Origin: Deltaproteobacteria bacterium
GTDB taxonomy: Bacteria > Myxococcota > Myxococcia > Myxococcales > 40CM-4-68-19
DNA: 64,000 nt
Reading direction: 5' to 3'
NCBI GenBank assembly: GCA_005879535.1
Contig: VBKI01000058.1
Span: 78,000-141,999, forward strand
Shown here: positions 9,218 to 63,699 of the stretch, one piece after another
Layout: every line of letters begins with the position of its first letter
How positions within the stretch are numbered: position 1 is the stretch's first letter
Translations under genes and position numbers: made by a program
The notes under the pieces: model-generated
Databases searched by the model: none
Told to the model about the DNA's origin: nothing
What the model saw: the letters and a program-made list of their open reading frames with translations, nothing else

Positions 9218-9678
9218 TCGCGATGGGCCGGAGCGCGCGGCGGCTGGTCCTCGCTTGTGCAGCGGCGTCGTTCGTGGCTCCGGCGCCGACCCATCCGATC
9301 GCCTTCCTGGAGATCGGAAATTCTACGCGCGATGAGGCGGAGCTCATCGCGCTCCACGAACGGACGCCGTTCTCCGTCACCTCCTGGCATTCGATGTACG
9401 ACCAGCCGGTCATCGAGGAGTTCGTGCTCGACGGCCGCTGCCACATCGTCCTGAAATCGGTGTCCAGTCCCAGCGCAGCAGTGCGCGAGTACCTGGGGAT
9501 CACGTCTCCGGGAGAGCGCCACGCCGTCGAGCGGGCGATGGGGCAGATCGTCTTCCGGGTCGCCATGGGGACGCCGCAGCGGTTGAATGCCGGCGCGCGG
9601 GAACGATCATTCCTGGAGTTCGGCGATCACGGCGACCGCCTGGTCATGCGGGCGATGGGTCTCTGCCCCGACTCATGA
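9214..9678 (+). CDS. DUF1850 protein of the TAXI-TRAP operon
   Basis: A 154-residue protein with an N-terminal signal or anchor segment (LVLACAAASFVAPAP) and the DUF1850 core. Conserved features are FSVTSWHSMYDQPVIEEF and a C-terminal region with a lone cysteine. The start overlaps the binding-protein stop (GTGA at 9214-9217); an ATG at 9223 is an alternative. DUF1850 genes nearly always sit between TAXI receptor and fused permease genes and are thought to be a periplasmic or membrane accessory subunit of these transporters, though no activity has been shown. Its own stop overlaps the ATG of the permease in an ATGA. Confidence 0.85.
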   Translation: MIAMGRSARRLVLACAAASFVAPAPTHPIAFLEIGNSTRDEAELIALHERTPFSVTSWHSMYDQPVIEEFVLDGRCHIVLKSVSSPSAAVREYLGITSPGERHAVERAMGQIVFRVAMGTPQRLNAGARERSFLEFGDHGDRLVMRAMGLCPDS

Positions 9679-11607: not shown

Positions 11608-11660
11608 GCTCGATCAGCGGAACAGCGTCGCTCGCAGCGAGGCGCTGGTCTCCTGGCGGC

Positions 11661-13786: not shown

Positions 13787-13877
13787 GTGCAACGTCCTTT
13801 CGCGCGGGCCCCGCCCGCGCTGCGCTCTACGTCGTTTGTCCGGGGTTGGATCCGGGGAACCGTGGGATCCTGATCGC

Positions 13878-13901
13878 AGCAGCGAAACTGCGTTCGCTGC
13901 T
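13878..13901 (-). promoter_or_regulatory. Stem-loop in the rpsO-pnp intergenic region
   Basis: AGCAGCGAA (13878-13886) and TTCGCTGCT (13893-13901) form a perfect 9-bp stem with a 6-base loop, about 90 bases upstream of the pnp start and 90 downstream of the rpsO stop. In enterobacteria the equivalent region holds the rpsO terminator and an RNase III-cleaved hairpin used in pnp autoregulation. No T tract follows on the minus strand, so an mRNA-processing or stability element is more likely than a terminator. The pairing is seen; the role is inference. Confidence 0.45.
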
Positions 13902-13989
13902 CCGATGAGGGTCCGGCGGGGCTCCCGGGTACAACCCTTTTGTCTTAAAACAGCCGAGAAGCATCTTTCGATGCCCCTCGCACATTCTC

Positions 13990-14271
13990 CTACTTGCGGA
14001 TTCCGAGACCGTCGATGAGCTTGCGGTACCGGCTCGTGTCCTTGGATTTGAGGTAGTCGAGCAGCCGCCGGCGCTGGCCGACCAGCTTGAGCAGGCCACG
14101 GCGGGAGTGATGGTCCTTCTTGTGCGTCTTGAAGTGCTCGGTGAGGTAGTGGATGCGCTCGGTGAGCAGCGCGACCTGGACCTCCGGCGAGCCGGTATCT
14201 CGTTCGTGCGTCCGGAACTTCTCCACCACCGTTGGCTTGCGGGTCTCGTAGTGCAACGGGCCTTGGGACAT
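13990..14271 (-). CDS. rpsO: 30S ribosomal protein S15
   Basis: A 93-residue ribosomal protein that binds the 16S rRNA central domain early in small-subunit assembly. The family signature is complete: [33 protein letters not shown] and [12 protein letters not shown]. Length is slightly above the usual 89 because of a few extra N-terminal residues ([13 protein letters not shown]). An AAAAGGA Shine-Dalgarno lies about eight bases before the ATG at 14271. The pnp gene follows in the same direction after about 200 bases, the classical rpsO-pnp pairing. A GC-rich hairpin upstream may serve S15 autoregulation. Confidence 0.97.
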
Positions 14272-14296
14272 CCTTGAATTCCTTTTGTTTCCCCCA

Positions 14297-14320
14297 CCTT
14301 CCGCCGGCCGGGCGGGAAGG
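14297..14320 (-). promoter_or_regulatory. GC-rich hairpin upstream of rpsO
   Basis: CCTTCC (14297-14302) pairs with GGAAGG (14315-14320), and the stem continues inward through GCC/GGC with a bulged G. It lies 25 bases upstream of the rpsO start and about 50 bases after the stop of the molybdoenzyme gene, all on the minus strand. It could be a terminator for the upstream gene or an S15-binding leader structure. No T tract supports the first; the second is by analogy only. Confidence 0.35.
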
Positions 14321-14370
14321 CGAGCAGGCGTTCCAATTTCCAGGCGAAATTGCCCGGAGGGCGCGGGAAC

Positions 14371-16689
14371 CTACAGGCTTGGACCCTGCGGGTCAAGGGA
14401 AACACCCTGCAAGGTAATGACCACGGACTTCGAGGCCGGCGTGTTGCTGGTGTGCGCGACGTGGCGGGCTGGAACCAGCGCATTCGCCTCAGGAAAGTAC
14501 GTGCAGGCGCACCCGCGCGGGATGTCGTAGGCGAGCGCGACGAACCGCCGCGCCACCCGCGTCTCGCCCTCGAAGCGGCTCTCGATGTCGACGGTCTGGC
14601 CGTCCTTCAGCCCCAGCGCGCGGAGGTCCTCCGCGTTCACCAATACCACCCGGCGATCGCCCTTCACGCCGCGGTAGCGGTCCTCGAGGCCGTAGATGGT
14701 GGTGTTGTACTGGTCGTGGCTGCGGACGGTCATCATCAAGAGCTCGCCGTCGCGGAGCGTATGGCGAGGCAAGGGATGGACGGTGAACCTCGCCTTGCCC
14801 GTGGGCGTGGTGAAGGTTCCCTCGCGTGGGCCGTTCGGAAGGTAGAACCCTCCGGGCCGGCGGACGCGGGCGTTGTAGCCCTCGCTGCCGGGGACGACCC
14901 GCGCGATCAGGTCGCGGACGCGGTCGTAGTCCTCGGCCAGCCACCCCCAGCGCACCCTGGTGCGCCCGCGCAAGGTCGCCTCGGCGAGGCGCGCAACGAT
15001 CTCCGGTTCGCCGAGGAGGTGTTTGCTGGCCGGTTTCATCCGGCCGCGCGACATCTGGACGACGCCCATCGAGTTCTCGGTGGTGACGAATCGGCCGCGG
15101 TCGTCCTCGGTGCGACCGAGGCAGGGAAGGATCAGCGCCGTCGTTCCCGCGACGAGGTGCGCGCGGTTCAGCTTCGTCGAGACATGTGCCGTCAGCCGGG
15201 CCCCGCGCAGGGCAGTCGCCGTATACTCAGTATCCGGCGCCGCAGAGAGGAAGTTGCCGCCAAGGGCGAAGAACGCCTTTGCCCGCCCGTCCCGCAGCGC
15301 ATGGATCGACTCGACCGTATCGAAGCCGTGCTTGCGCGGCGCGACGATTCCGGTCGCCTTCTCCAGCGCCTCGAGGAAGGCGGGGCGCGGCTTCTCCCAG
15401 ATGCCCATCGTCCGGTCGCCCTGCACGTTGCTGTGTCCGCGGACCGGACACACTCCCGTGCCGGGCTTGCCGATGCTGCCGCGGAGCAGCAAGAGGTTGA
15501 CGATCTCCCGGACGTTGTCGACGGCGTTCGCGTGCTGCGTCAGCCCCATCGCCCAGCAGAAGATGATCCGCTCGCTGTGTGCGAAGAGGCGCGCGGCGGC
15601 GCGGATGTCTCGCTCGGAGATGCCGCAGGCGGCGGAGATCTCCGCCCACTGCACGCGCTCCAGATGATCGGTGAAGGCCAAGACGTTCTCGGTCCGCTCG
15701 CGCACGAAGATCTCGTCCACGGCTGCGGCTTCGACCAGCGACTTGGCGATTCCTTGCAACAGGGCGACGTCGCCGTTGATCTTCACCTGAAGGAAGACGT
15801 CGGTGAGCGGAGTCGCCCGCCGCAGCGGGTGCTGGGGATGCTTGAACGAGAGCAACCCCGCCTCGCGCAGGGGATTGATGGCGACGATCTTCGCCCCCGC
15901 CATCTTGGCTTGCTCGAGGGCGGAGAGCATCCGTGGGTGGTTGGTTCCCGGGTTCTGACCGGCGACGACGATCAGCTGCGCCTTGGCGAAGTCGTCGAGG
16001 CGTACGGTCCCCTTGCCGATCCCGATGGTCTCACCAAGTCCGCTCCCGCTCGACTCGTGGCAGAGATTCGAGCAGTCGGGCAGGTTGTTCGTGCCGAGCT
16101 CGCGGACGAAGAGCTGGTAGAGGAACGCCGCCTCGTTGCTCGTGCGCCCGCTCGTGTAGAAGACCGCCTCGTCCGGGCTGCCGAGCGCGTTGAGCTCCGT
16201 GGCGACGAGGGTGAACGCGTCGTCCCAGGCGATCGGCTCATAGTGCGTCGCTCCCGGACGCAGCACCATCGGATGCGTGAGCCGCCCTTGCTTGCCGAGC
16301 CAGTGATCGCTCTGTCGGGAAAGCTCCGCCACGCTGTGGCGCGCAAAGAGCTCCGGCGTCGCGCGCGCCGTCGTACCCTCCTCGGCGATCGCCTTGACGC
16401 CGTTCTCGCAGAACTCGAAGGTGCTGCGGCGGTCGTCCGGGTCCGGCCAGGCGCAGCCAGGACAGTCGTAGCCCTCGAACTGGTTGAGCTGCCGCAGGAG
16501 CTTCGCGCCGCGCAGCGCCCCGGGCTCCCCGGCGGCGTGGCGGATGGAAGCGATCACCGCGGGCAGCCCTCCTGCCCGTTCTTTCGGCGCCTCACGCTGG
16601 AGGGGAACGGCCGTTTCTGGCGGCTGCGCGCGCGCATCCCGCGCGTCGGCCGGCGCCGGCGGCGGAGGTGTCTTCAGGCTTTCCGCCAC
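14371..16689 (-). CDS. FdhF/YdeP-type molybdopterin oxidoreductase
   Basis: A 772-residue cytoplasmic molybdoenzyme of the YdeP-like formate dehydrogenase alpha family. The GTG at 16689 starts a proline-rich 45-residue leader. The family hallmark CPGCAWPDP is at about residue 75, followed by typical bis-MGD-binding blocks ([56 protein letters not shown] near the end). There is no N-terminal [4Fe-4S] CX2CX3C ferredoxin-like motif and no selenocysteine. In E. coli YdeP is linked to acid resistance; the substrate of this branch is not established, so formate oxidation should not be assumed. It lies 17 bases downstream of a sensor kinase gene on the same strand, so the two are probably co-transcribed. 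Confidence 0.9.
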
Positions 16690-16706
16690 TGCGCGAGCGT
16701 ACCACG

Positions 16707-18074
16707 TCAGGCGCTGAGCAGAGCTCCGGTCTCGTGGGACACCGGTTCCGACGGCGCCGCCTCGTCGAGCTCGAACCAGAAGAGGGCCCCGCCGCGGGGG
16801 CCGGCGCGCACACCGAGGGATCCGCCGTGCGATTCGACGAGCCGTTTCACGGTCGCCAGACCGAGACCGATCCCGGGAGCACCCGTGTGCGGCCCGCGAA
16901 TGTAGGGCTCGAAGATCGTCATTCCGAGCGACGCCGGGATCCCCGGGCCGGTGTCCTCGACCTCGAACAAGACCCGGCCGCGCCGCTGGCGGACGCGAAG
17001 AGCGACCTCGCGCAACTCCGCGTCGCCCAGGTACTTGAGGCCGTTGCGCAGCAGGTTGCCGAGCACGCTGAGGAGGACGCCGGAGCTGCACGCGACGGCG
17101 CACTCGGGAACGTCCTCGAACCGGAGCACGGCGTCGCGTTGCACGGCGAACGGGGAAAGCTCGTCGAAGAGACCGGCGGTCACCGGGCGCACGTCTGCCT
17201 TGGCCGCGGCCTCGGGCCGGGCCCCGGCTCGCGCAAACTCGAGCAGTCCGTCGACGATGCGCCGCACACGCGAGAGGCTGGATTGCGCGCGCTCCAGGGC
17301 TTCGGCCGAGTGGGCCGGACTCTTCTCGACGATGCCCATCGCCATGCTCACCGCCGAGAGGGGGCTGAGGATGTCGTGGGCGACGCGGCCGGCAAACTGC
17401 TCCAGCTCCGCGGCCTTGCGTTCGGTCAGGTTCTGGTGCGCCTGCTGCATCCGATGGATCTGGCGCAGCGCGCGGATGGTGACGAACGCCGCGAACGCGG
17501 CGATCGCGGCGCAGAACGCATCGAGCTGCCAGGCCGTCCGGTTGCCGCGTCGCCGCGCGGCCTCGATTCGCTGCGCCGCCTTCTCCGCGGCTTCCACGTC
17601 GTACTGGACGAGATCGTTCGCCGCCGCGCCCGCAGCGTCCGCCAGACGAAAGACCTCGTTGCGCGCCGTCTCCTGCGCCACGTCGCGGTGTCCGCCCCGG
17701 GCCTGCTCCAGCGCTCTCTCGGCCGCTTCGTCGAACGCGCGCACCGCGCTGTGCAGCTTGCCGAGGAGGAGCGCCTCGGGCGCGTCGGTCGGCAGCGCCA
17801 CGGCACGCTCCAACAATGCATCGAGGCGGCGGCGCGAGTCGACGATGTCGCTGGCCGGGAAGCCGTTCACGGTGCGAAAGACGCGCGCCTGCATCTCGCG
17901 CACCTCCGCGCGCAGATCGCTGATCACCTGGATGCCAGGCGCGGCGTCGCGCGAGATCATGACAGCGTCGGCGTCGATCTCCCGCGCCTGGTGCTGGACC
18001 AGGACCGTCGATCCGATGAAGGCCGTCACCACCCCGAGGAAGGCCACCGCCAGAACGCGCGTCGAAGTTCCCAT
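16707..18074 (-). CDS. Membrane sensor histidine kinase
   Basis: A 455-residue protein. A first membrane helix spans residues 7-26 (VLAVAFLGVVTAFIGSTVLV). An extracytoplasmic, mostly helical sensor region follows to about residue 185, then a second helix (FCAAIAAFAAFVTI). The phosphoacceptor motif is RVAHDILSPL. The ATPase domain carries LLRNGLKYLG (N box), DTGPGIP (G1) and GIGLGLATVKRL (G2). The four-helix periplasmic part resembles the ligand-binding bundles of chemoreceptors (CHASE3/4HB-like). No response regulator is adjacent, so it is an orphan kinase; its immediate downstream partner is the molybdoenzyme gene. The start ATG at 18074 was chosen because it precedes the first helix. Confidence 0.9.
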   Translation of the reverse strand: MGTSTRVLAVAFLGVVTAFIGSTVLVQHQAREIDADAVMISRDAAPGIQVISDLRAEVREMQARVFRTVNGFPASDIVDSRRRLDALLERAVALPTDAPEALLLGKLHSAVRAFDEAAERALEQARGGHRDVAQETARNEVFRLADAAGAAANDLVQYDVEAAEKAAQRIEAARRRGNRTAWQLDAFCAAIAAFAAFVTIRALRQIHRMQQAHQNLTERKAAELEQFAGRVAHDILSPLSAVSMAMGIVEKSPAHSAEALERAQSSLSRVRRIVDGLLEFARAGARPEAAAKADVRPVTAGLFDELSPFAVQRDAVLRFEDVPECAVACSSGVLLSVLGNLLRNGLKYLGDAELREVALRVRQRRGRVLFEVEDTGPGIPASLGMTIFEPYIRGPHTGAPGIGLGLATVKRLVESHGGSLGVRAGPRGGALFWFELDEAAPSEPVSHETGALLSA

Positions 18075-38842: not shown

Positions 38843-40126
38843 TCACTGCGTGATGTAGAGGAAGCCGATGCACATCTCGTCGTCGGTGCCTTCGCCCCAG
38901 TTGAGATCGCGCGGAGCACGGCCGTCGGGCTGGTGCGCCGCGCTGTTGTCCCAGTGGCACTCGATGGAGAGGCTGTCGTTCATCTGCACCCGCGTCGGGG
39001 TCTTCAGGGCGTACGAGCCCTGCCAGTGGAAGTCCCAGCGAGGAATGTCCAGGAGGCACTCGTGGCTCCCTCCGGCGCGCTGGATCTCGAGGCGGTTGTG
39101 GGTGCCGCGAAGGTGCTGGTGCGTGGCGGCGCCGTAGACGGTGAACGGGCCGGCGGGGATGGCGCCGCTCGTAATCAAGCCGAGATAGGAACCCGGCGCG
39201 AATGTGAATGCGTGACTGACGTCCGGCTGCCCAGCGGGAACGTTCATCGTGTGCGAGCTCAGCCAGGATGGATCCGCCCAAGGGAGAACGAAGGCCTGCC
39301 GCTGCACGGCATCGTCGAGCTTGAGCTGGAGCGAAGTCTGGTCGGAGGCTCCGTCCCTCGGCCGGTTGTAGTGGACCTGCAGGATGATCTTCGAGCCGGG
39401 ATCGATGGGCACCCCGGTGCCCGCCGGAAAGTCGCCGCCGCGGCTCCCCGGGACCCAGCCGCCGAGCGTCGGCACGACACCGCCAGGGCCGCCGAAGCAC
39501 GTGTATCCGGGCAAAGGGTCCGCATCGTCGAGCGCCTGGAACTGCGAGACCTGGCCGGGAGGAGCGACAAAGACCAGCACGTGATGGACGATGGCAGCGT
39601 TTCCCGGCTTCGCGACGAAGCCGGTGACGTAGCGTCTTGCGGATTCCGGCCAGTCGAGCAGGAAGCAACGGTACTCGTCGGGAACCTGCACCGGCGTGTA
39701 CGGCGCCGCGACTCTCAGGTCGCGGTCGACGCGCGACAGGCCACCGGGCGGTGGGGAGGAGACGGGTGTCGCATCGGCCGGATTGCCCTCCGGCGCTCCG
39801 TGGTCGAGCCAGGTGAGGAGCGTGGTGCGGTCCTTCTCGGAGAGGGAGCGATCGTCGTCGTACTCCGTGCACCCCGGCGCCGGTGGCCAGGGCGGCATCC
39901 GGCGGGACGTGACCTGCTCGCGAATGAGCTGCTGCCGGCCGAAGAGATCGGCATAGGACTCGAACGGAAAAGGCGCGATGGACCCGGTGCTGTGACAGCC
40001 GCTGCAACTCTGCGTGACGATGGGGCGGACGTCGCGGTGCCAGGTGGGCACCCGGTCGGCGTTGGAACCGCAGCCGCAGATGACGATGGCGCAGATGACC
40101 GCGGACGCCCGCATGCCGAGGAGCAT
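38843..40126 (-). CDS. Lipoprotein cytochrome c / copper type II ascorbate-dependent monooxygenase-like protein
   Basis: A 427-residue exported protein. Residues 1-20 form a lipoprotein signal (AVICAIVICGC). Residues 28-115 are a small cytochrome-like domain with haem motif CSGCH (Cys41, Cys44, His45) and the PPWPPAPGC motif usual in these fusions. Residues 150-427 resemble peptidylglycine/dopamine-type copper monooxygenases, with VHHVLVF, ILQVHYN, ATHQHLRGTHN and IECHWDN as candidate copper-ligand segments. Eukaryotic relatives hydroxylate with two coppers and ascorbate; here the haem domain could supply electrons directly. The substrate is unknown. It lies divergent from the sulfite-dehydrogenase-like operon. 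Confidence 0.85.
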   Translation of the reverse strand: MLLGMRASAVICAIVICGCGSNADRVPTWHRDVRPIVTQSCSGCHSTGSIAPFPFESYADLFGRQQLIREQVTSRRMPPWPPAPGCTEYDDDRSLSEKDRTTLLTWLDHGAPEGNPADATPVSSPPPGGLSRVDRDLRVAAPYTPVQVPDEYRCFLLDWPESARRYVTGFVAKPGNAAIVHHVLVFVAPPGQVSQFQALDDADPLPGYTCFGGPGGVVPTLGGWVPGSRGGDFPAGTGVPIDPGSKIILQVHYNRPRDGASDQTSLQLKLDDAVQRQAFVLPWADPSWLSSHTMNVPAGQPDVSHAFTFAPGSYLGLITSGAIPAGPFTVYGAATHQHLRGTHNRLEIQRAGGSHECLLDIPRWDFHWQGSYALKTPTRVQMNDSLSIECHWDNSAAHQPDGRAPRDLNWGEGTDDEMCIGFLYITQ

Positions 40127-40204: not shown

Positions 40205-41353
40205 ATGACGCTGGATCGCAGGCAATTCCTGAAATCGTCGCTGTCCGGTGCCGCCGCCTTCGCCTGCTGGGTGAAGGTTCCGACTCTCGCGCATGCCAAG
40301 GGGAGGGCGGACCTCATCCGCATGACGGAACGGCCGCCCAACTACGAGTCGGTGCGCTCGACGTTCACCACGCGGATCACCCCGGTCGAGCGGTTCTACC
40401 TGCGCAACCACTTCGACCTGCCGAAGATCGACGTCGCGAAGTGGCGCCTGAAAGTGCACGGCCTGTTGGAGAAGGAGCTGTCGCTTTCCCTGGCCGATCT
40501 GCAGCGCATGCCCCAGGTCACCGTGGAGGCGGTGCTGCAATGCGCGGGGAACGGTCGCGCGCTGTTCACGCCGCATGTGCCGGGCGTCCAGTGGCGGTAC
40601 GGAGCCATGGGCAACGCGGAGTGGACGGGAGTCCGCTTCAAGGATGTGCTCGCCTTCGGCGGGCTCAAGAAGGACGCCGCTTTCATCCAGCTTCAAGGTG
40701 CGGAGCGCCCGACCATGAACACGACGCCGGCATTCATCCGTGCCATCCCCGTGGAGAAGGCGCTTCATCCGGACACGCTCCTGGCACTGAAGATGAACGG
40801 CAAGCCGCTGGCGCCGACCCGAGGACAGCCGATCCGTCTTGTGGTGCCGGGCTGGGTCGGCGACGACTGGGTGCGGGCGCTGGTCGACATCGAGGTGCGC
40901 GCCGACGAGCCGAAGGCCTTCTACTACGACACGGCCTATCGATTTCCGGCAACGCCGGGCGCTCCGGGTGCCCCCATTCCCGCCGACCAGATGAAGCCGA
41001 TGACGAAGCTCAACGTGAAGTCGCTGCTCGGATCCCTGAGCGACGGCGATCGGCTCGCGCCGGGCGTCCATCAGCTTGCCGGAGTGGCCTTCTCCGGCGA
41101 GGCGGGGATAGAGCGGGTCGAGCTGAGCTTCGACGGCAGCAAGACCTGGACCGCGGCGAAGCTCGACGGTCCGGCCAGCGCGTACGGTTTTCGGGTCTTC
41201 CGTCATGCCTGGAAGACGGAGCCCGGCAGCTACGAAGTCGCGTGTCGTGCGACGGACAACGCCGGCGCCACGCAGCCGGAGACGCCAGTGTGGAACCCGT
41301 CCGGCTATCTGTACAATGCGATCGAGCGGCTGAAAGTGGAGGTGCGAGCATGA
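40205..41353 (+). CDS. Sulfite oxidase-family molybdoenzyme (SorA/SoxC-like)
   Basis: A 382-residue periplasmic molybdenum enzyme. A Tat motif (DRRQFLKSS) opens the chain. The molybdenum-ligating cysteine is Cys113 in LQCAGNGR, and other cofactor blocks are VPGVQWRYGAMGNAEWTGV and LVVPGWVGDDWVRAL. The C-terminal dimerisation domain reads GVAFSGEAGIERVELSFDG. The best functional guess is sulfite:cytochrome c oxidoreductase, because two small c-type cytochromes follow with ATGA and GTGA overlaps, as in SorAB. SoxC is structurally similar, but the partner SoxD would be a larger dihaem cytochrome. Confidence 0.9.
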   Translation: MTLDRRQFLKSSLSGAAAFACWVKVPTLAHAKGRADLIRMTERPPNYESVRSTFTTRITPVERFYLRNHFDLPKIDVAKWRLKVHGLLEKELSLSLADLQRMPQVTVEAVLQCAGNGRALFTPHVPGVQWRYGAMGNAEWTGVRFKDVLAFGGLKKDAAFIQLQGAERPTMNTTPAFIRAIPVEKALHPDTLLALKMNGKPLAPTRGQPIRLVVPGWVGDDWVRALVDIEVRADEPKAFYYDTAYRFPATPGAPGAPIPADQMKPMTKLNVKSLLGSLSDGDRLAPGVHQLAGVAFSGEAGIERVELSFDGSKTWTAAKLDGPASAYGFRVFRHAWKTEPGSYEVACRATDNAGATQPETPVWNPSGYLYNAIERLKVEVRA

Positions 41354-41718
41354 TCCGCATCCTCATCGCAGCCGGCCTCTCGCTCGGCGGCGCCGCATGG
41401 GTCATCGCATCCGCAGCGGCGGCGGACGACAAGGCGACGGCGGCGCTCCTCGATGGCCAACTTCCCGACGACCCGGCGCGTCCGCTGGTGCAGGGAAAGT
41501 GCCTGCTCTGTCACTCCGCCGAGTACGTCACCTCGCAGCGGTTGACGGAGGGGCAGTGGCAGAAGACGGTGGACAAGATGCGCAAGTTCGGGTCGCCCGC
41601 GACCGACGAGGAGGCGAAGGCGATGACCGCTTACTTCGCGCGCTACTGGACGCCCGACTTGCCGCCGCTGCGTGTCGTGCGAGCGCCAGCCCCACCGGGA
41701 TCGGTTCCCGGCAAGTGA
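41350..41718 (+). CDS. Monohaem c-type cytochrome, SorB-like
   Basis: A 122-residue periplasmic cytochrome. A signal peptide (LIAAGLSLGGAAWVIASAAA) is followed by the haem motif CLLCH (Cys51, Cys54, His55). The family pattern LVQGKCLLCHSAEYVTSQRL is that of SorB, the electron acceptor of sulfite dehydrogenase, and the Met-containing loop (KMRKFGSPATDEEAKAM) supplies the sixth ligand. ATG 41350 overlaps the stop of the molybdoenzyme gene and its own stop overlaps the next cytochrome gene. The proline-rich tail is probably unstructured. Confidence 0.9.
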   Translation: MIRILIAAGLSLGGAAWVIASAAAADDKATAALLDGQLPDDPARPLVQGKCLLCHSAEYVTSQRLTEGQWQKTVDKMRKFGSPATDEEAKAMTAYFARYWTPDLPPLRVVRAPAPPGSVPGK

Positions 41719-42077
41719 TCTGGACGTTGCCGCTCGTGGTGCTCGCCGTGACGTCGCCCGCGCGGGCAGCCAGGCCGCCGAAGCGGTCGCCGGTGCTGCT
41801 CGAGATGGGGAAGCGCACCTACGGCATCTACTGCGTCGCTTGCCACGGCGAGACCGGCGCGGGAGATGGGTCGGCGGCGGCGAAGCTGGACCCGAGGCCG
41901 CGGAACTTCAGCACGGAGCCGTTCAAGCAAGGTTCCAGCGTGCGGCAGATCTTCGACACGCTGGGAAAGGGAGTCCCGGGGACGGCGATGGTGAAGTTCA
42001 CCAATCTGTCCGAGGAAGAGCGGTGGGCGCTGGCGTGGTACGTGCGCGAGCTCAAGGACGGCAAGCCGGAGCGGTGA
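41715..42077 (+). CDS. Second monohaem c-type cytochrome of the sulfite-dehydrogenase operon
   Basis: A 120-residue periplasmic class I cytochrome c. The signal peptide ends around PARAA. The haem motif is CVACH (Cys40, Cys43, His44) in YGIYCVACHGETGAGDG, and GTAMVKF holds the likely methionine ligand. GTG 41715 overlaps the previous stop (GTGA). It probably relays electrons from the SorB-like cytochrome to the terminal oxidase. The operon ends here; the stop at 42077 faces the convergent stop at 42083. Confidence 0.9.
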   Translation: MIWTLPLVVLAVTSPARAARPPKRSPVLLEMGKRTYGIYCVACHGETGAGDGSAAAKLDPRPRNFSTEPFKQGSSVRQIFDTLGKGVPGTAMVKFTNLSEEERWALAWYVRELKDGKPER

Positions 42078-56663: not shown

Positions 56664-57908
56664 ATGGCCCGGCACCCCAGCGAACGCACAGTCATCTTTC
56701 TCATCGGCGCCGTCCAGTTCGTCAACATCCTCGACTTCATGATGGTGCTGCCGCTGGGACCGTTCTTCGCCGGACCGCTGGGCATTCCTGCGTCGCGAAT
56801 CGGCGTCATCGGCGGGAGCTACACCGCCGCGGCGGCGATCTCGGGCATCGCCTGCTCGTTCTTCCTCGATCGATTCGATCGCAGAAAGGCCCTCGGCGTC
56901 GCGGTCGCCGGACTCGTCATGGCCACCGCGCTCGGCGGTTTCTCGGTGGGGTTCGGGAGCATCGTCTTCGCCCGCATTCTGGCCGGTTTTTTCGGCGGGC
57001 CGGCGACCTCGCTGTCGCTCTCGATCGTCGCCGACGTCATCCCGGCGGAGCGCCGCGGCAAGGCGCTCGGCGCCGTGATGGGGTCCTTCTCCGTCGCGGC
57101 CGTGCTCGGCGTCCCCGTCGGCCTCGAGCTGGCGCGCTGGGGCGGGTGGCGGCTGCCGTTCTTTTCCGTCGCGGGACTGGGCCTCGTTCTCCTGCCCATC
57201 GCAATCGCGTTGCTGCCGCCCCTGAGAGGTCACCTCGCCATCGGGGACAGCGCACGCCGCACCGGGTTTCTCGGCCTGCTCTCGCGCCGGACCGTGCAGC
57301 TCTCGATCGTCGCGACGATGGTGGTGATGTCGTCGGCGTTCCTCGTCATCCCTGTCATCACGCCATACCTGGTCTTCAACCTGCGCTTCCCGGCCAGGGA
57401 CCTGAAGTGGATCTACATGATCGGAGGCGCGCTCTCGTTCGTGGTCCTGCGGATCATCGGCGCCCTTGTCGATCGGTACGGGTCTACCCGGCTGGCGACC
57501 CTCGGCACCGCCATGTTCCTGCTCGTCTCCTGGCTGTCGTTCGTCAGCTACGACGTGAGAGTCCCCATCACCCCGCTGTTCGTCCTCTTCATGGTGGGGA
57601 TGAACTTCCGCATGGCGCCATACCAGACCCTGATCAGCAAGGTGCCCGTGCCCCAGGAGCGGGCGAGCTTCATGTCGCTGATGAGCGCGATCCAGCACCT
57701 CTCGACGTCGGCCGGAGCGGTGTTCTCGAGCGTCGTGCTCTCCACCGGAGAGGACGGTACGCTCGTGGGGATGCCGGCGCTGGGGATCCTCGCGATGGCC
57801 GTCGCTGCGCTCGTGCCGCCCCTCTTCTGGCTGGTGGAGCGCCGGGTGGCGCGTGCCGCGCCGATGCCGACGGCGCCGGTCGTGGTGGAAGCGAGCTCGA
57901 CGGGCTGA
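56664..57908 (+). CDS. Major facilitator superfamily transporter
   Basis: A 414-residue inner-membrane transporter of the drug:H+ antiporter type (DHA1) with twelve helices. The A motif lies between helices 2 and 3 (FFLDRFDRRKALGVA), and the antiporter motif C-like region is GSFSVAAVLGVPVGLELARW. The first helix, NILDFMMVLPLGPFF, has the acidic residue of arabinose/drug efflux permeases. The central loop and second half are complete (FVVLRIIGALVDRYGSTRLA). The substrate cannot be deduced. A promoter-like region with inverted repeats follows before the next operon. Confidence 0.9.
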   Translation: MARHPSERTVIFLIGAVQFVNILDFMMVLPLGPFFAGPLGIPASRIGVIGGSYTAAAAISGIACSFFLDRFDRRKALGVAVAGLVMATALGGFSVGFGSIVFARILAGFFGGPATSLSLSIVADVIPAERRGKALGAVMGSFSVAAVLGVPVGLELARWGGWRLPFFSVAGLGLVLLPIAIALLPPLRGHLAIGDSARRTGFLGLLSRRTVQLSIVATMVVMSSAFLVIPVITPYLVFNLRFPARDLKWIYMIGGALSFVVLRIIGALVDRYGSTRLATLGTAMFLLVSWLSFVSYDVRVPITPLFVLFMVGMNFRMAPYQTLISKVPVPQERASFMSLMSAIQHLSTSAGAVFSSVVLSTGEDGTLVGMPALGILAMAVAALVPPLFWLVERRVARAAPMPTAPVVVEASSTG

Positions 57909-58039: not shown

Positions 58040-58807
58040 ATGCCCACACGACGTTCGCGGTCGATGCTTTTCGCTGGAAGCATCTCGCCAGCCTTCGTTC
58101 TCACGACTCTGCTCTCGCTCCCGGCGGCGGCGTACGAGTCGGTGCAGGTGACCGAAGGCGGCACGATCAACGGGAAGGTCGTCTACCAGGGTGACATCGC
58201 AACCCGGAAGATCATTCCGACCAAGGATCCCGAGACCTGCGGGGGCATCCGCGAGGAGCCGTTGATCGTCGTAGGGGGCGGCAAAGGCGTCCAGAGCGCG
58301 GTCGTGTACCTGAAGGACATCCAGAAAGGGAAGGGGCTCGCGAAGCCGCCCAAGAACCCGGAGATCAACAACCTCAACTGCCAGTTCGACCCGCACGTAC
58401 AGGCGATTCCGGTGGGATCGATCGTCGTCGTCAACTCAGACCCCGTCATGCACAACACGCATGGCTTCCTCGGCAAGCAGACGGTCTTCAACCAGGCGAT
58501 GCCGACCAAGGGGATGCGGATCGAGAAACCGATCCGGAAGGCGGGGATGATGCGGATCGAGTGCGACGTGCACGGCTGGATGCTCGCCTGGGTGTATGCA
58601 GCCGAGCACCCGTACCACGCCGTGACAGGGAAGGACGGCAGCTTTTCCATCCCGGACGTGCCGCCGGGCTCGTACACACTCGTCGCCTGGCAGGAGGCGG
58701 CGGACGTGACCGAAGTGCCGGTGACGGTGAAGCCGAAGGAAGCCACGCAGCAGACCATCGAGCTGAAGAACGCGACGGAGCAGAATATCGAGCTGAAGAG
58801 GAAGTGA
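58040..58807 (+). CDS. Periplasmic cupredoxin / carboxypeptidase regulatory-like domain protein
   Basis: A 255-residue exported protein. Residues 1-31 are a signal peptide (VLTTLLSLPAAA). Residues 36-185 form a cupredoxin-like domain with a full candidate type 1 copper set: His138/His141 in DPVMHNTHGF, then Cys175, His178 and Met181 in CDVHGWM. Residues 190-255 are a β-sandwich regulatory domain (KDGSFSIPDVPPGSYTLVAW) with a lysine- and glutamate-rich end. Relatives are often annotated as methylamine-utilisation-like plastocyanins. It is first in the operon with the metallophosphoesterase, SoxA-like cytochrome, SoxYZ and rhodanese, so an electron-carrier role there is plausible. Confidence 0.85.
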   Translation: MPTRRSRSMLFAGSISPAFVLTTLLSLPAAAYESVQVTEGGTINGKVVYQGDIATRKIIPTKDPETCGGIREEPLIVVGGGKGVQSAVVYLKDIQKGKGLAKPPKNPEINNLNCQFDPHVQAIPVGSIVVVNSDPVMHNTHGFLGKQTVFNQAMPTKGMRIEKPIRKAGMMRIECDVHGWMLAWVYAAEHPYHAVTGKDGSFSIPDVPPGSYTLVAWQEAADVTEVPVTVKPKEATQQTIELKNATEQNIELKRK

Positions 58808-58856
58808 GGCTGTCGAGCTCGGTGCCCGTGCCCGCAAGGCGTGGGGAGGGAAGACC

Positions 58857-60017
58857 ATGGACGAGAATCAGCGAGAGAGGATCGAGCTGCACAAGACGCT
58901 ACAAGGCACGGGCGAGCGACCGGGCGGATCGCTGCGGATCACGCGCCGGACTTTCCTCCACAAGTCGCTGCTCACGGGTGCCGCCGGAGCGGCCACCTAC
59001 GGGTGGTTCCCGCTCATCGGCACGCTCGATTTTACGCTGGCCCAAGCGGGAGGACAGGCGACATCGTTCAAGTTCGCCTGGATCTCGGACAACCACCTCT
59101 ACCCGAAGGAGGTCAACCAACGCTTCGTGGACAAGGCGGTGCGAGCCGTGAAGGAGGTCCAGGCCATGAATCCGCCCGCGGACTTCCTCATCCACGGAGG
59201 TGACCTCGCCCAGCTCGGCGATCCTGTCGAGCTCGACCTCGGAAACGAGATCCTGAAGGAGGTGAAGATCAAGAAGGTCTTCATCCCCGGCGAGCACGAC
59301 TGGTACCTCGACCTGGGCCAGAAGTGGACCAACCTGTTCGGCCAGCCCAACTGGACGTTCGATCACAAGGGCGTGCGGTTCGTCGGGCTCGACACGGTGA
59401 GCAGGGGCCCGGACTACTGGACGGCGAAGAAGATGAGCCCCAAGGAGCGCATGGGGCACATGGCGACGCTCGACGGCAGCGTCGCCGGGGCCTGGGCTGG
59501 CGTGGGGCGGGACCAGCTCCAGTGGCTGAACCAGACGCTCTCCAGCTGGGACAAGAGCAAGCCAATCGTGATCTTCAGCCACAACCCGCTCTATGAGTAC
59601 TACCCGCCGTGGAACTTCTGGGTCCGCGACTGGCGGGAGGTCCACGAGGTGCTCAGGCCCTACGCGAACGTGACCAACGTCCATGGCCACACGCACCAGG
59701 TGCTCTACAACGAGCTCGGCAAGATGCGGTCCATCGGAATGCTCGCCACCTCCTGGACCTGGCCCTACGCGCCCGAGGGCGTCCCGGCGCTCACCAAGTG
59801 CAAGGTCCGCGTGGACCCCGGCGACCACTTCGACGGCGTTGGCTGGGGGCGGCTCACGCTGACCGCCGCGAACAGGGTCGAGAACGAATACATGATGTGG
59901 CGGAAGGACATCTTCGCCGATGCCGCCGTCGACTCGGGGTGCGGGGACAACGGCAACCAGATCGTTCACCCCCGCATCGCGGACCAGGAATGGCCCTACT
60001 ACGGCGCGTACAAGTAG
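58857..60017 (+). CDS. Tat-exported calcineurin-like metallophosphoesterase
   Basis: A 386-residue periplasmic protein. The twin-arginine motif TRRTFLHKSLLTG is at about residue 29. The dinuclear metal site is complete except for one change: Asp78 and His80 (SDNH), Asp116 (HGGDLAQ), GEHD at 145-148 where most families have GNHD, His242 (FSHNPLYEY), and GHTH (His278, His280). The W/Y-rich loops around residue 250 are unusual. Tat export suggests a folded metal enzyme. SoxB, the thiosulfohydrolase, belongs to the same superfamily, and this gene stands beside SoxYZ; hydrolysis of a SoxYZ-bound group is a reasonable guess but not shown. Confidence 0.88.
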   Translation: MDENQRERIELHKTLQGTGERPGGSLRITRRTFLHKSLLTGAAGAATYGWFPLIGTLDFTLAQAGGQATSFKFAWISDNHLYPKEVNQRFVDKAVRAVKEVQAMNPPADFLIHGGDLAQLGDPVELDLGNEILKEVKIKKVFIPGEHDWYLDLGQKWTNLFGQPNWTFDHKGVRFVGLDTVSRGPDYWTAKKMSPKERMGHMATLDGSVAGAWAGVGRDQLQWLNQTLSSWDKSKPIVIFSHNPLYEYYPPWNFWVRDWREVHEVLRPYANVTNVHGHTHQVLYNELGKMRSIGMLATSWTWPYAPEGVPALTKCKVRVDPGDHFDGVGWGRLTLTAANRVENEYMMWRKDIFADAAVDSGCGDNGNQIVHPRIADQEWPYYGAYK

Positions 60018-60038
60018 CCCACGCGAGAGGAGACGGCC

Positions 60039-60488
60039 ATGAAGAAAATGATCCGAAACGGTCTCGTCGCGGCGGGCATCCTCGTCGGCTCGCTCCTGAT
60101 CGTCACGTCTGCTCGTGCTCACAAGGCCAAGCACACTCCCCAGCAGCTCAAGGCATTCGAGGAAGTGTTCATGGAACAGGTGCGCGTCGGGGACCTGCTC
60201 TTCCACGGAGACGACGGCGCGCAGAAGAAGCTGAACGTGAGGCTCAGCAGGACGGGGACGGCATGCGCCATGTGCCATCCATTCGCGACCGATACGCACC
60301 CCTACGAGTTCCCGAAGTTTCAGGAGCAGGTCGGGCAGTTCGCCACCCTGCGCGACATGATCAACTGGTGCATCGAGAAGCCCGCCGAGGGAGAGAAGCT
60401 GGATACGGACTCGGCCGCGATGAAGGCGCTCGAGGCGTACATCTACTGGTCGAACCGCGGCTCCAAACTGGATCCTGGCAGGCACTGA
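60039..60488 (+). CDS. SoxA-like monohaem c-type cytochrome
   Basis: A 149-residue periplasmic cytochrome. The signal peptide is residues 1-27 (AGILVGSLLIVTSARA). The haem motif is CAMCH (Cys76, Cys79, His80) in TACAMCHPFATDTHPYEFPK. The segment after it follows SoxA: TLRDMINWCIEKPAEGEKLD then DSAAMKALEAYIYWSNRG, where SoxA has a cysteine (here Cys111) that ligates the active-site haem and becomes a persulfide. The protein is half the length of SoxA, lacking the first domain. ATG 60039 has GAGAGGAG ahead of it. It is flanked by the phosphoesterase and SoxYZ genes. A separate SoxX is not seen. Confidence 0.82.
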   Translation: MKKMIRNGLVAAGILVGSLLIVTSARAHKAKHTPQQLKAFEEVFMEQVRVGDLLFHGDDGAQKKLNVRLSRTGTACAMCHPFATDTHPYEFPKFQEQVGQFATLRDMINWCIEKPAEGEKLDTDSAAMKALEAYIYWSNRGSKLDPGRH

Positions 60489-60498
60489 ACGGCCAACG

Positions 60499-61290
60499 AT
60501 GGCTCGCCAGCCCATCTTTCGCGCGCGCGTTCTTTCCAGGCGAGACGTCCTCGGGCTCGCCTCGGTCGCCGGCCTCTGCATCGGCGGGGCGCGGGCGGCA
60601 TCGTCCGGGAGGCGCTTGCTCGGCGGGGACCCGGCGCTCCTCTCACCGCTCGAGCGCGAGCACCTTCCCTTGCTTCGCATCCCGGCGAAAACCCGCAACG
60701 CGCACAAGGTCCCGATCGTCGTCGAGATGTCGCATCCCATGACGGCCGACCATCACGTGACGAAGGTGGAAGTGGTGAACGACAGGGAACCGGTCCCCTC
60801 GATGGGGACGTTCCGGTTCACGCCCGCCAACGGTGTCGTCTACGTCGGCTTCCAGGCCCGCATGGACGACGGGGACTCCGAGGTGACCGTCACGGCAGAG
60901 TGCAACCGCCATGGCGCGTGGGCGATCCGCCGGCGCATCACCATCGCGGAGGATCCCGAGGGCTGCTCCGCTACCGCCCCTCCGCGCGCACGCACGGCCG
61001 GAAATGACATCCACCCGCCGGAGATCCGTATCCCCGAACTGGTCGAGCGCGGCCGGATCCGCCGCGGCGAGGTCATCCACCCGCAGCTCAAGATCCGGCA
61101 CCCGAACCGCACCGGGACGTCCGAGCCGCTCCACCTCAAAGACCTCGAGGTGTGGTTCGCCGGACAGCGCGTCAGCCGGTTCGAGCTCACCCCGGCGCTG
61201 AGCGACGACCCGTTCATCAGCTTCGCGCTGCTCGCCAGCCGCGAGGGGGTTCTCGGGGTCCGCCTGGCGAACAACCGCGGCCAGCGGTGA
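60499..61290 (+). CDS. soxYZ: Fused SoxY-SoxZ sulfur carrier protein
   Basis: A 263-residue periplasmic protein that joins both subunits of the Sox carrier. A twin-arginine signal (LSRRDVLGLASVAGLCIGGA) starts the chain. Residues 60-150 are SoxY-like (VPIVVEMSHPMTADHHVTKV, EVVNDREPVPSMGTFRFTP). SoxY normally ends in a GGCGG arm; here Cys156 in AEDPEGCSATAP occupies that position and is followed by the SoxZ-like domain (PPEIRIPELVERGRIRRGEV, IHPQLKIRHPN, and WFAGQRVSRFELTPALSDDP). Fused SoxYZ-like carriers are known beside quinoprotein dehydrogenases, but none is visible here. The cysteine would be the sulfur-bearing residue. Confidence 0.88.
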   Translation: MARQPIFRARVLSRRDVLGLASVAGLCIGGARAASSGRRLLGGDPALLSPLEREHLPLLRIPAKTRNAHKVPIVVEMSHPMTADHHVTKVEVVNDREPVPSMGTFRFTPANGVVYVGFQARMDDGDSEVTVTAECNRHGAWAIRRRITIAEDPEGCSATAPPRARTAGNDIHPPEIRIPELVERGRIRRGEVIHPQLKIRHPNRTGTSEPLHLKDLEVWFAGQRVSRFELTPALSDDPFISFALLASREGVLGVRLANNRGQR

Positions 61291-61308
61291 GTGTAGGAGG
61301 TGGCGACG

Positions 61309-61833
61309 ATGCGCAATCTCGCCGTGATCCTGGGAGCACTCGGGCTGGTGTGCGGCGCTCTCGCCGACGAGCCCGGTTCGCCTGCAGGCGCTCCACCGGG
61401 CGGTGCCGATGCCCGCAAGCACCTCGCGGACTTCTTCCTGCGCACCAAGGGAATGACCCGCGTCGTCTCTGCCTCCGAGGTATCCGAGGGCATCCGGACG
61501 GGGAAGAGCAAGTATCGCGTGGTTGATGTCCGGCCCCCTGACGAATACGAAAAGGGCCACGTGCCCGGGGCGATGAACATCCCGCTCGACGTTCTCTTCC
61601 GCCCGGCGAGCCTGGAGAAGCTGCCCGCGGCCGGGGATCCGATCCTCCTCGTCTGCCCGTCCGGGCACATGGAGTCGATGGCGCTGGGCGGGCTCGCCGC
61701 GCTCGGCTACGAGCCCTACGTCCTGCGCTTCGGAATGATCGGCTGGAATGCCGAGACCAAAGTGAAAGTGGCAGGCGCGCCGGGTCAGGCGCCCGAGGTG
61801 GTCCACGGCCTCGGCGGACCGATCGAGAGGTAG
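61309..61833 (+). CDS. Exported rhodanese-like sulfurtransferase
   Basis: A 174-residue periplasmic rhodanese. AGGAGG lies eight bases before ATG 61309, which is preferred over a GTG at 61300. Residues 1-19 are a signal peptide (LAVILGALGLVCGALA). The domain shows VVDVRPPDEYEKGHVPGAMN (CH2A motif) and the active-site loop CPSGHMES with Cys116. It is the last gene of the Sox-like operon and could move sulfane sulfur to or from the SoxYZ arm. An AAGGAG-spaced ATG at 61861 just downstream opens only an antisense frame, so a further operon gene may once have begun there. Confidence 0.88.
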   Translation: MRNLAVILGALGLVCGALADEPGSPAGAPPGGADARKHLADFFLRTKGMTRVVSASEVSEGIRTGKSKYRVVDVRPPDEYEKGHVPGAMNIPLDVLFRPASLEKLPAAGDPILLVCPSGHMESMALGGLAALGYEPYVLRFGMIGWNAETKVKVAGAPGQAPEVVHGLGGPIER

Positions 61834-61881: not shown

Positions 61882-62493
61882 TCACCCGCGGTTCACCAGC
61901 AAGGCGGCATCGCGCACCACGCGCTCCACCGAGCCGGCGTCTTCCGGGTCATAGCGCGCCCGGATTCGCCCTTGACTGTCCACGAGCACCAGATCCGTTC
62001 CTCGGGAAACGGCGTCGCGGACGGTATCGACCGGTCCGGTGAGGAAGGTCCACATCCGGGGACTGGCGCGATGCTCACGCGCGTAGGCAGCGAGCCGGGA
62101 GGGATCGTCGAACCCGGGATCGACGGTGATCGACACGAGGTGGAAGGCAGGCTCGAGGTTCCGCGTGCGGGCCTGGATCCGCGCCATCTGCCGGGTGATG
62201 ACGGGGCAGACGGTCTGACACCGCGTAAAAATGAAGCTCGCCAGCCAGACGCGCCCGATGAGGTCCTTGGAGCCGAACCGGCCGCCGTTCGCCGCAGTGA
62301 GCTCGAAAGGCGGGACGGTCCCGAGGACGGGCAGCCTGGGAGGCACCGGCGTACGGAGAGCCCAGGAGATCGGCCACGCGGCGATGAGCGCGATGAGCAC
62401 GACCCAGGTGAGCGGGCGCCCGACCGCAGCGCCTACCCATGCCTGGATGCGATCGCGAAACCCGGATCGGGCGGCGGTTGGCATTGCACCCAT
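61882..62493 (-). CDS. SCO1/SenC family protein lacking the copper-ligand histidine
   Basis: A 203-residue membrane-anchored thioredoxin-like protein of the Sco family, which delivers copper to the CuA site of cytochrome c oxidase. The membrane helix is at 29-46 (TWVVLIALIAAWPISWAL). The CXXXC pair is Cys92/Cys96 (IFTRCQTVCPVIT), followed by LVSITVDPGFDDP. In the region of the third copper ligand (usually a His before the LVLVD strand) the sequence is AVSRGTDLVLVDSQG with no histidine. It may thus act only as a thiol-disulfide reductase, or the ligand may be elsewhere. It lies opposite to and upstream of the oxidase genes. Confidence 0.88.
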   Translation of the reverse strand: MGAMPTAARSGFRDRIQAWVGAAVGRPLTWVVLIALIAAWPISWALRTPVPPRLPVLGTVPPFELTAANGGRFGSKDLIGRVWLASFIFTRCQTVCPVITRQMARIQARTRNLEPAFHLVSITVDPGFDDPSRLAAYAREHRASPRMWTFLTGPVDTVRDAVSRGTDLVLVDSQGRIRARYDPEDAGSVERVVRDAALLVNRG

Positions 62494-62555: not shown

Positions 62556-63197
62556 TTGAGCAGCACGGTCGCCCACGAGCACGGGCACCCGACGGCGGCG
62601 TGGCCGCCGGATGCCCAATACGGCACCGCGACACCCGGGAAGATCGGGATGTGGATCTTCCTCATCTCCGATGCCTTTTCTTTTGGCGGCCTGCTCATCG
62701 CCGAAGGCATCCTCTACGCGGGCCACCGCCCGTGGCGGCAGGCCGGGGAGCCGGAGCTCGGGATCCTGTTCACCGCGGCGCTGACCTTCATCCTCGTCTG
62801 CACGAGCCTGACGAACGTCCTCGGCTGGGCGGCGGCCGCCGACCGGAAGCGCAGACAGGCAGCCATCCTGCTCGGTCTGACGGCGTTCGGCGGCGCCCTT
62901 TTCCTCGTCGGTCAGTTCCAGGAGTGGTTCGGGATCTGGGCGCCCGGGCTCCTGCGCGAGGGGCTGGTCTTCGGCCAGTCGCCTCGGGCGAGCACGTTCT
63001 ACGTCATCACCGGCTACCACGGTCTCCACGTCCTGATCGGCGTCGCCTACATCCTCGCGATCCTCGTCGGGTACCTTCGCGGCCGCGTCAATGAACGTCA
63101 GATCGAGCTTCTCGGTTTGTACTGGTGCTTCGTCGACTTCGTCTGGGTGTTCGTGTTCTCGTTCGTCTATCTCCTCCCTTCGTTGAGCGGCGCATGA
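62556..63197 (+). CDS. ctaE: Cytochrome c oxidase subunit III
   Basis: A 213-residue inner-membrane protein with five helices, the short form of haem-copper oxidase subunit III. Family marks are IGMWIFLISDAFSFGGLLIA (with the conserved glutamate two turns on), QFQEWF, and the helix pair TGYHGLHVLIGVAYILAILV / YWCFVDFVWVFVFSFVYLLP. TTG 62556 is the start: GGAGGTGAGG stands six bases upstream. The subunit IV gene overlaps its stop (ATGA). It heads the oxidase operon, which continues past the window end. Confidence 0.92.
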   Translation: MSSTVAHEHGHPTAAWPPDAQYGTATPGKIGMWIFLISDAFSFGGLLIAEGILYAGHRPWRQAGEPELGILFTAALTFILVCTSLTNVLGWAAAADRKRRQAAILLGLTAFGGALFLVGQFQEWFGIWAPGLLREGLVFGQSPRASTFYVITGYHGLHVLIGVAYILAILVGYLRGRVNERQIELLGLYWCFVDFVWVFVFSFVYLLPSLSGA

Positions 63198-63529
63198 CCG
63201 AAAAGGAGATCCTCCAGCCCGAGGTTTCCTCGGTGACCCACGTTCCGGAGGCGAGGCAGCGGACCCCGTACCTCGCCGCGTTCGGCGTGCTCGTCGCGCT
63301 CACGCTGGTGGAGATCGGTGTGGTGCGGAGCGCGGGGATCCCTCACCGGGCGGCAATCGTCGCGCTGATCGCGATTGCCTTGGCGAAGGCCGCGCTCATC
63401 GCGCTCTTCTACATGCACCTGCGCTACGAGACCCGGATCCTGAAAGTCACGGTGCTCGGCCCGCTCATTGCGCCAGCGGTCTATGGGCTGCTCTTGATGC
63501 TCGATTCCGCCGCGAGGCACATGCCATGA
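63194..63529 (+). CDS. Cytochrome c oxidase subunit IV
   Basis: A 111-residue membrane protein with three helices (YLAAFGVLVALTLVEIGVV, AIVALIAIALAKAALIALFY, VTVLGPLIAPAVYGLLLML) and the subunit IV hallmark ALFYMHLRYE at the end of the second helix. ATG 63194 overlaps the subunit III stop and its own stop overlaps the next small gene. It stabilises or assembles the oxidase. Confidence 0.9.
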   Translation: MTEKEILQPEVSSVTHVPEARQRTPYLAAFGVLVALTLVEIGVVRSAGIPHRAAIVALIAIALAKAALIALFYMHLRYETRILKVTVLGPLIAPAVYGLLLMLDSAARHMP

Positions 63530-63699
63530 CCCTCGCCCTTCTTTTCGCCATCGCAAGCGTCCCGGCCGTCGCTCTCGCCTGCCCGGCCTGCTCGCGGGAC
63601 GGGACGCCTCAGCTCGCGCTGCTGCTCGGCGCGATGATCGCCGTCCCGTACGCCGTCGTCGCGCTGGCCGTGTACGCAATCCGGGGAGGCGGGCGGTGA
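63526..63699 (+). CDS. Small membrane protein with CPAC motif in the oxidase operon
   Basis: A 57-residue protein: a signal-like helix (MTLALLFAIASVPAVALA), then CPAC, then a second helix (LALLLGAMIAVPYAVVALAV). ATG 63526 and GTGA at its end give four-base overlaps on both sides, strong evidence that it is translated. The CPAC motif at the periplasmic membrane surface suggests a copper or thiol role in oxidase assembly. No family name is known to me. Confidence 0.8.
   Translation: MTLALLFAIASVPAVALACPACSRDGTPQLALLLGAMIAVPYAVVALAVYAIRGGGR

Follow-up and report, generated by a model that had tools for sequence, protein, structure and literature searches.

What a tight run of five genes for exported proteins does in a Myxococcota bacterium is the question raised by the 64,000-nucleotide stretch of contig VBKI01000058.1 analyzed here, which is referred to below as the window. 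These genes had been predicted from the letters alone to form a non-canonical Sox-like sulfur-oxidation operon. The module appears to be real, conserved and undescribed, Sox-like in character and built on a fused carrier with the iron-ligand set of superoxide reductase (SOR). We estimate at about one in two the probability that the operon is a periplasmic Sox-like sulfur-carrier system feeding a haem-copper oxidase. In the open literature, a scope that leaves out most subscription journals, no paper was found on this gene set, and none that joins desulfoferrodoxin with SoxZ or SoxY with superoxide reductase. All five open reading frames (ORFs) of the original prediction are present on the plus strand at the same coordinates, separated by gaps of 49, 21, 10 and 9 bases, and their products carry plausible export signals. 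The genes and the parts of the carrier are as follows.

58040..58807, plus strand: cupredoxin, exported, with the type-1 copper motif CDVHGWM and a C-terminal carboxypeptidase-regulatory-like beta domain
58857..60017, plus strand: calcineurin-type metallophosphoesterase, exported by the twin-arginine (Tat) route, with GEHD for the usual GNHD
60039..60488, plus strand: monohaem c-type cytochrome of the SoxA/TsdA domain family, with CxxCH and an invariant C111
60499..61290, plus strand: fused carrier, Tat-exported, consisting of a SOR/SoxY domain, an arm cysteine and a SoxZ domain
60652..60948, plus strand: SOR/SoxY domain of the carrier, residues 52-150 (profile match and alignment with SOR structures)
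60964..60966, plus strand: codon for Cys156, a SoxY-like arm cysteine within the motif EGCSATA (relatives have GGCAGTA)
61060..61284, plus strand: SoxZ domain of the carrier, residues 188-262
61300..61833, plus strand: rhodanese, exported, with a conserved Cys119 at the active-site position

An alignment of four rows served to search 84,980 species genomes for the carrier. Four of the five genes, namely those for the cupredoxin, phosphoesterase, cytochrome and carrier, recur in one order and on one strand at 22 loci, of which 17 belong to Methylomirabilota (including a Rokubacteria contig), three to Myxococcota (including the window) and two to the Entotheonella phylum; because this order is conserved across phyla, the gene set is not a product of chance. 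In G066, a complete genome in a single contig, the rhodanese accompanies the other four genes. The wide scan returned more carrier copies in Rokubacteria, Entotheonella and a Chloroflexi contig from a metagenome-assembled genome (MAG), as well as an unfused relative in Nitrospira; the Chloroflexi contig (L015, 3.4 kb) is perhaps misbinned, since its genes resemble those of L007, and is not counted as a phylum. Within the source phylum, the carrier occurs in 4 of 193 genomes, G066 among them, whereas the phosphoesterase occurs in 53 of 195; the latter is also found in 23 of 95 Methylomirabilota genomes and in 2 of the 5 from the Entotheonella phylum. Phosphoesterases of different phyla share 68-84% identity, and the four-gene set is therefore either under strong constraint or has been transferred between lineages. 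The rhodanese (domain match 1e-14) is found next to the set nowhere but in Myxococcota and on a single short Chloroflexi MAG contig, and in L007 it lies upstream of the set, not downstream. Its predicted place in the set has to be given up in favor of that of an optional neighbor outside the conserved core. The five genes as a single unit are likewise rejected, as the rhodanese is optional and the phosphoesterase-cytochrome pair is also found alone.

The carrier is not the ordinary fused SoxYZ that had been predicted, as half of it is a domain with the iron-ligand set of SOR. Its N-terminal half matches the Pfam families Desulfoferrodoxin/SOR (3.5e-13) and SoxY (8.9e-13), both on one region, and its C-terminal part matches SoxZ (2.8e-10). 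In an alignment with solved SORs, H55, H79, H85, C135 and H138 occupy the five iron-ligand positions, the identities of which we take from general knowledge. The arm reads EGCSATA and lies within the chain, in place of the GGCGG of SoxY. Its cysteine is invariant in all complete carriers of the alignment, as are H79 and C135; H85 is lost once and H138 in three carriers, and of the 21 Rokubacteria/Entotheonella rows, 10 retain H55. The Myxococcota carriers and ten Nitrospirota proteins have the full set of five ligands together with the arm cysteine. Since the arm cysteine never varies while the iron ligands do, the arm is, judged by the alignment, the most strictly constrained part of the carrier, with the iron site as a variable asset. 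The window carrier ends 10 residues earlier than its closest relative owing to a 30-bp in-frame deletion (window 61285-61300), and this shortened SoxZ end belongs to this genome alone among those compared; in the carriers of L006 (Anaeromyxobacter-like) and L011, the end of SoxZ is intact. The predicted structure (pLDDT 85, pTM 0.82) has two beta domains and resembles SoxZ structures as well as SoxY and SOR; Foldseek matched it to Paracoccus SoxY (target TM 0.74, rmsd 1.9) and to neelaredoxin-type SORs (target TM 0.70, rmsd 2.2), in a list that also has unrelated immunoglobulin-like matches. In the arm region, the pLDDT falls below 50, and the stretch around Cys156 is presumably mobile or flexible.

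In a tree rooted on SORs, the SOR rows lie on one side of a 97/97 branch and the window carrier on the SoxY side, and the SoxY proteins with SOR ligands are excluded from the 100/100 clade that unites canonical SoxY with the SoxYZ fusions linked to pyrroloquinoline quinone (PQQ); branches in this tree are long, and the PQQ-linked fusions are represented by two rows only. The fusions look independent because the window carrier and the PQQ-linked carriers stand on separate branches, and the tree thus supports the view that SoxY and SoxZ were joined separately in the two groups. Desulfoferrodoxins have so far served as the outgroup in SoxY trees (PMC6382920). A SOR-like ancestor of SoxY is plausible from the tree, not proven, and a carrier that holds both the SOR ligand set and the SoxY arm is a direct lead on the origin of SoxY. 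The relatives in Nitrospirota (L086-L088) have an unfused SoxY with SOR ligands that ends in VGGC; downstream of it lie genes for a SoxB-related protein that scores 431 bits (cut-off 550) and for SoxZ, along with TsuA-, TusA- and DsrE-like genes. These three loci are near-copies and count as roughly one observation. The coordinates of this Sox-type operon in L086 are 9644-14656. SoxZ, TsuA-like and SoxB-like genes also surround a more distant copy of the SOR-ligand SoxY in L093.

The phosphoesterase carries a twin-arginine signal and matches PF00149 (2e-11). Its residues D78, H80, D116, E146, H147, D148, H242, H276, H278 and H280 are invariant, and the metal-ligand motifs are kept, with Glu for the Asn of GNHD. 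SoxB is likewise a member of the metallophosphoesterase superfamily, and the enzyme is possibly a SoxB-like hydrolase. The cytochrome is a monohaem protein of the SoxA/TsdA type (PF21342, 1e-10) that scores 35 bits against the SoxA family TIGR04484 (cut-off 110); its CxxCH and C111 are invariant, the latter where SoxA and TsdA have their cysteine haem ligand. In TsdA, an S-thiosulfonate intermediate is formed on this ligand (PMC4423706). The prediction of a SoxA-like monohaem cytochrome stands with regard to the family and the cysteine ligand, but the arginine that SoxA haem 2 and TsdA have in the active site is missing. For the cupredoxin, Pfam recognizes only the C-terminal carboxypeptidase-regulatory-like domain, while a profile search finds blue copper proteins; structural matches of the AlphaFold model (pLDDT 87) are to purple cupredoxin, amicyanin and plastocyanin. 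C175, H178, M181 and H138 are invariant as type-1 copper ligands, and the protein is probably a periplasmic electron carrier.

The exported set was said to work without canonical Sox proteins, and the rest of the genome agrees with this. No SoxB over the cut-off was found in the genome (best TIGR04486 match 90 bits against 550), the sole SoxY match is the operon carrier, the sole SoxA-type cytochrome is that of the operon, and there is no true SoxC, the best matches scoring 197 and 170 bits against a cut-off of 420. SoxX is absent from the operon, the genome not having been searched for it separately. With this limit on SoxX, a canonical sox operon elsewhere in the genome is rejected. PQQ dehydrogenases do not track the cluster: none is adjacent to the set, none occurs in G066 or G282, both of which carry the cluster, and in G000 they lie on other contigs. 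Thus, neither a full sox operon elsewhere nor a set kept only beside PQQ dehydrogenases was found. A Rokubacteria genome (G193) has both SoxB and SoxC over the cut-off, and the set can therefore coexist with canonical Sox. The 197-bit SoxC-type match is a SorA-like enzyme within the window, where the following genes lie.

40205-41353, plus strand: SorA-like molybdenum sulfite dehydrogenase
41350-41718, plus strand: SorB-like cytochrome
41715-42077, plus strand: further c-type cytochrome beside the SorB-like gene

The reading frames of these three genes overlap, they are not linked to the operon, and the SorA- and SorB-like scores are below the curated cut-offs. The SorAB-like pair is a possible sulfite-oxidizing partner of the operon. 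The original prediction had stated that no SoxCD is visible; the sulfite dehydrogenase genes at 40205-42077 are an addition to it.

The sulfur role is favored by the invariant arm cysteine, the fused SoxZ domain and the Sox-type operon around the Nitrospirota relative, and also because the cytochrome belongs to the SoxA/TsdA family, TsuA-like genes are present in L074 and L075, oxidases lie alongside and canonical Sox is absent. In such a system, a sulfur compound would be bound to Cys156 of the carrier arm, and the electrons of its oxidation would be taken up by the cytochrome and the cupredoxin and passed to the adjoining oxidase. The metallophosphoesterase would hydrolyze the carrier-bound intermediate, as SoxB does in canonical Sox; the rhodanese, where present, would strip off sulfane sulfur; and any sulfite set free could be passed on to the SorAB-like pair. 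The SOR-type Y half, with its complete Fe(His)4Cys ligand set in this protein, may add a redox step on the carrier. We infer the substrate, the direction of electron flow, the target of the phosphoesterase and the binding of iron, and likewise that the set oxidizes thiosulfate or a sulfane. To a bolder proposal we give a small chance, namely that these carriers form an overlooked iron-containing class of SoxY between SOR and canonical SoxY, and that their Fe(His)4Cys center acts on the sulfur held by the arm. If so, bound sulfane would be oxidized on the carrier without SoxCD, and the operon of the window and those of Nitrospirota would be two forms of one class. The cut-offs of the SoxA, SoxB and SoxY profiles miss the set, so that the sulfur metabolism of Rokubacteria, Entotheonella, uncultured Myxococcota and similar soil lineages would be under-counted, and the recurrence of the set beside respiratory oxidases in three phyla points to an undescribed handling of sulfur for respiration.

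Several observations weigh against this Sox-like reading. The phosphoesterase lies outside the SoxB/5'-nucleotidase family and lacks the C-terminal domain of that family; the cytochrome aligns best with the haem-1 domain of SoxA, and the Arg that SoxA haem 2 and TsdA have four residues before the ligand cysteine is replaced by Met in 29 of its 30 sequences and by Gln in the remaining one. The window carrier lacks the last SoxZ strand, and the iron site has partly decayed in the Rokubacteria carriers. Moreover, a phosphoesterase of 43-48% identity occurs with the cytochrome, and without carrier or cupredoxin, in about 50 genomes of Myxococcaceae (a name inferred from kinship), so the pair has a function independent of SoxYZ and the analogy with SoxAX and SoxB is not compelled. 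It can be argued from this that the pair is the real unit, acting on a soluble compound by a TsdA/SoxB-like reaction or one of another kind altogether, and that cupredoxin, carrier and rhodanese joined it later in some lineages. A pathway of TsdA and SoxB without SoxYZ is indeed known in Erythrobacter (PMC7608252), but the cytochrome lacks the active-site arginines of TsdA, and at 22 loci in three phyla the pair is accompanied by carrier and cupredoxin in one constant gene order, which is why they probably act together there. We regard the pair as sole unit as doubtful. TsdA-like catalysis by the cytochrome is itself weakened as a candidate, since no sequence has arginine at the position four residues ahead of the cysteine.

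The iron-ligand domain opens another possibility, in which the carrier is a working SOR fed by the cytochrome and cupredoxin, with cytochrome c peroxidase (CCP)-type neighbors removing the peroxide, and the whole serves as a periplasmic defense against reactive oxygen species. The complete set of five ligands, present in the Nitrospirota proteins as well as in the window protein and its relatives from Myxococcota, is consistent with this, as are the fold, the SOR profile score slightly above that of SoxY, the MauG/CCP-type genes that flank the set in several Methylomirabilota and the pair in Myxococcaceae, and the extracytoplasmic function (ECF) sigma and anti-sigma genes nearby. Nevertheless, about half of the Rokubacteria/Entotheonella carriers have lost the first His and three have lost H138, while the arm cysteine is constant. 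The lysine before the first His ligand, found in 10 of 12 SORs compared, is missing in the carrier (REHLP against EKHVP), a difference that is not strict, as some SORs, L102 and L103 among them, also lack it. As such a role would leave the SoxZ fusion and the Sox-type operon of Nitrospirota without a reason, we consider it unlikely. It also seems improbable to us that the set merely serves the oxidase next door. Sets of metallohydrolase, fused SoxYZ and rhodanese in Sinorhizobium and in Pseudomonas (PMC12997753) are a close parallel in composition, and the set does adjoin oxidase, SCO1, CtaG-like and cytochrome-maturation-like genes; yet the carrier falls outside the clade of the PQQ-linked fusions, the metallohydrolase is of another family, carrier relatives sit in Sox-type operons, and the neighboring oxidase varies (aa3-type, cbb3-type or none in view), so that no single client is conserved.

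Compared with known systems, the set shares with canonical Sox an exported carrier bearing an arm cysteine in addition to SoxY-like and SoxZ domains, a cytochrome of the SoxA family that has the cysteine haem-ligand position, and a hydrolase of the metallophosphoesterase superfamily. It differs in that this genome has no SoxB, SoxC or separate SoxY and SoxZ (SoxX was not searched for), the phosphoesterase is of another family, the cytochrome is without the active-site arginine, the arm EGCSATA lies inside the chain instead of a terminal GGCGG, and the Y domain has SOR iron ligands. The PQQ-associated SoxYZ-like carriers of TIGR04557, fusions also described in PMC11237559, are likewise exported SoxY-SoxZ fusions with a metallohydrolase and often a rhodanese alongside, and their GGCSAP-like arm resembles that of the window carrier. 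Unlike it, they have no iron ligands, are accompanied by a hydrolase of another family, are linked to PQQ dehydrogenases and form a separate branch; the window carrier reaches 79 bits against a cut-off of 140, and membership in this family is rejected on score, ligands, context and tree. With SOR/desulfoferrodoxin centre II (PF01880), the carrier shares the fold and all five iron-ligand positions, and with TAT-SOR the twin-arginine export (PMC3116461), but it differs in adding the arm cysteine and the SoxZ domain and in having no lysine ahead of the first His ligand, and it belongs to a group in which the iron site is not strictly conserved. TsdA and SoxB of Erythrobacter flavus also combine a SoxA/TsdA-family cytochrome with a metallophosphoesterase-superfamily hydrolase without canonical SoxYZ (PMC7608252); the set in the window, by contrast, has a hydrolase other than SoxB, a monohaem cytochrome without the TsdA active-site residues, and a carrier. 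Genes like those of the SorAB sulfite dehydrogenase occur in the window (40205-41718), but outside the operon.

The genes that follow the set in the window are those of a haem-copper oxidase.

61882..62493, minus strand: SCO1/SenC copper chaperone, first gene of the adjoining haem-copper oxidase cluster
62556..63197, plus strand: cytochrome oxidase subunit III
63194-63529: cytochrome oxidase subunit IV-like; subunit II starts at 63696 and subunit I runs past the window end

The neighboring haem-copper oxidase is the likely terminal electron acceptor. Families of neighbors were defined with a simple home-made ORF caller and BLAST clustering, with NCBIfam applied to representatives only, and the labels CcoQ, CtaG, cytochrome maturation and MauG come from reading the sequences. 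An aa3-type oxidase cluster adjoins the set or lies close to it in the window and in G066. In most Rokubacteria loci and in Entotheonella, cbb3-type oxidase genes (CcoN-like and a CcoO-cytochrome fusion) and a CtaG-like gene follow the set; upstream of it, the majority of these Rokubacteria encode an ECF sigma factor and an anti-sigma factor with CxxCH. In another Methylomirabilota group, MauG/CCP-type genes flank the set on both sides, and L074 and L075 have a TsuA-like thiosulfate transporter gene near the four genes.

The anti-sigma factors, as in L013 (6609-7430) and its relatives, have an exported part ending in CxxCH (CLVCHAPHE) and are possibly haem-binding redox sensors. In the six larger carrier-free Myxococcaceae loci examined, a MauG/CCP-type gene stands next to the pair; the order in L169-L174 is MauG/CCP, phosphoesterase, SoxA-type cytochrome, without SoxYZ, and in L171, ECF sigma and anti-sigma genes come after this cluster. 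Rfam gave no match anywhere in the 64-kb window. Immediately upstream of the operon (56664-57908) is a major facilitator superfamily transporter akin to the myxochelin exporter MxcK, and divergent from the SorA-like gene (38843-40126) is a CxxCH protein with copper type II monooxygenase-like domains. Past the window, L009 encodes an exported-looking protein of 606 residues (14972-16792) downstream of the oxidase cluster, and a hydrolase-like region of this protein reads like a metallo-beta-lactamase fold.

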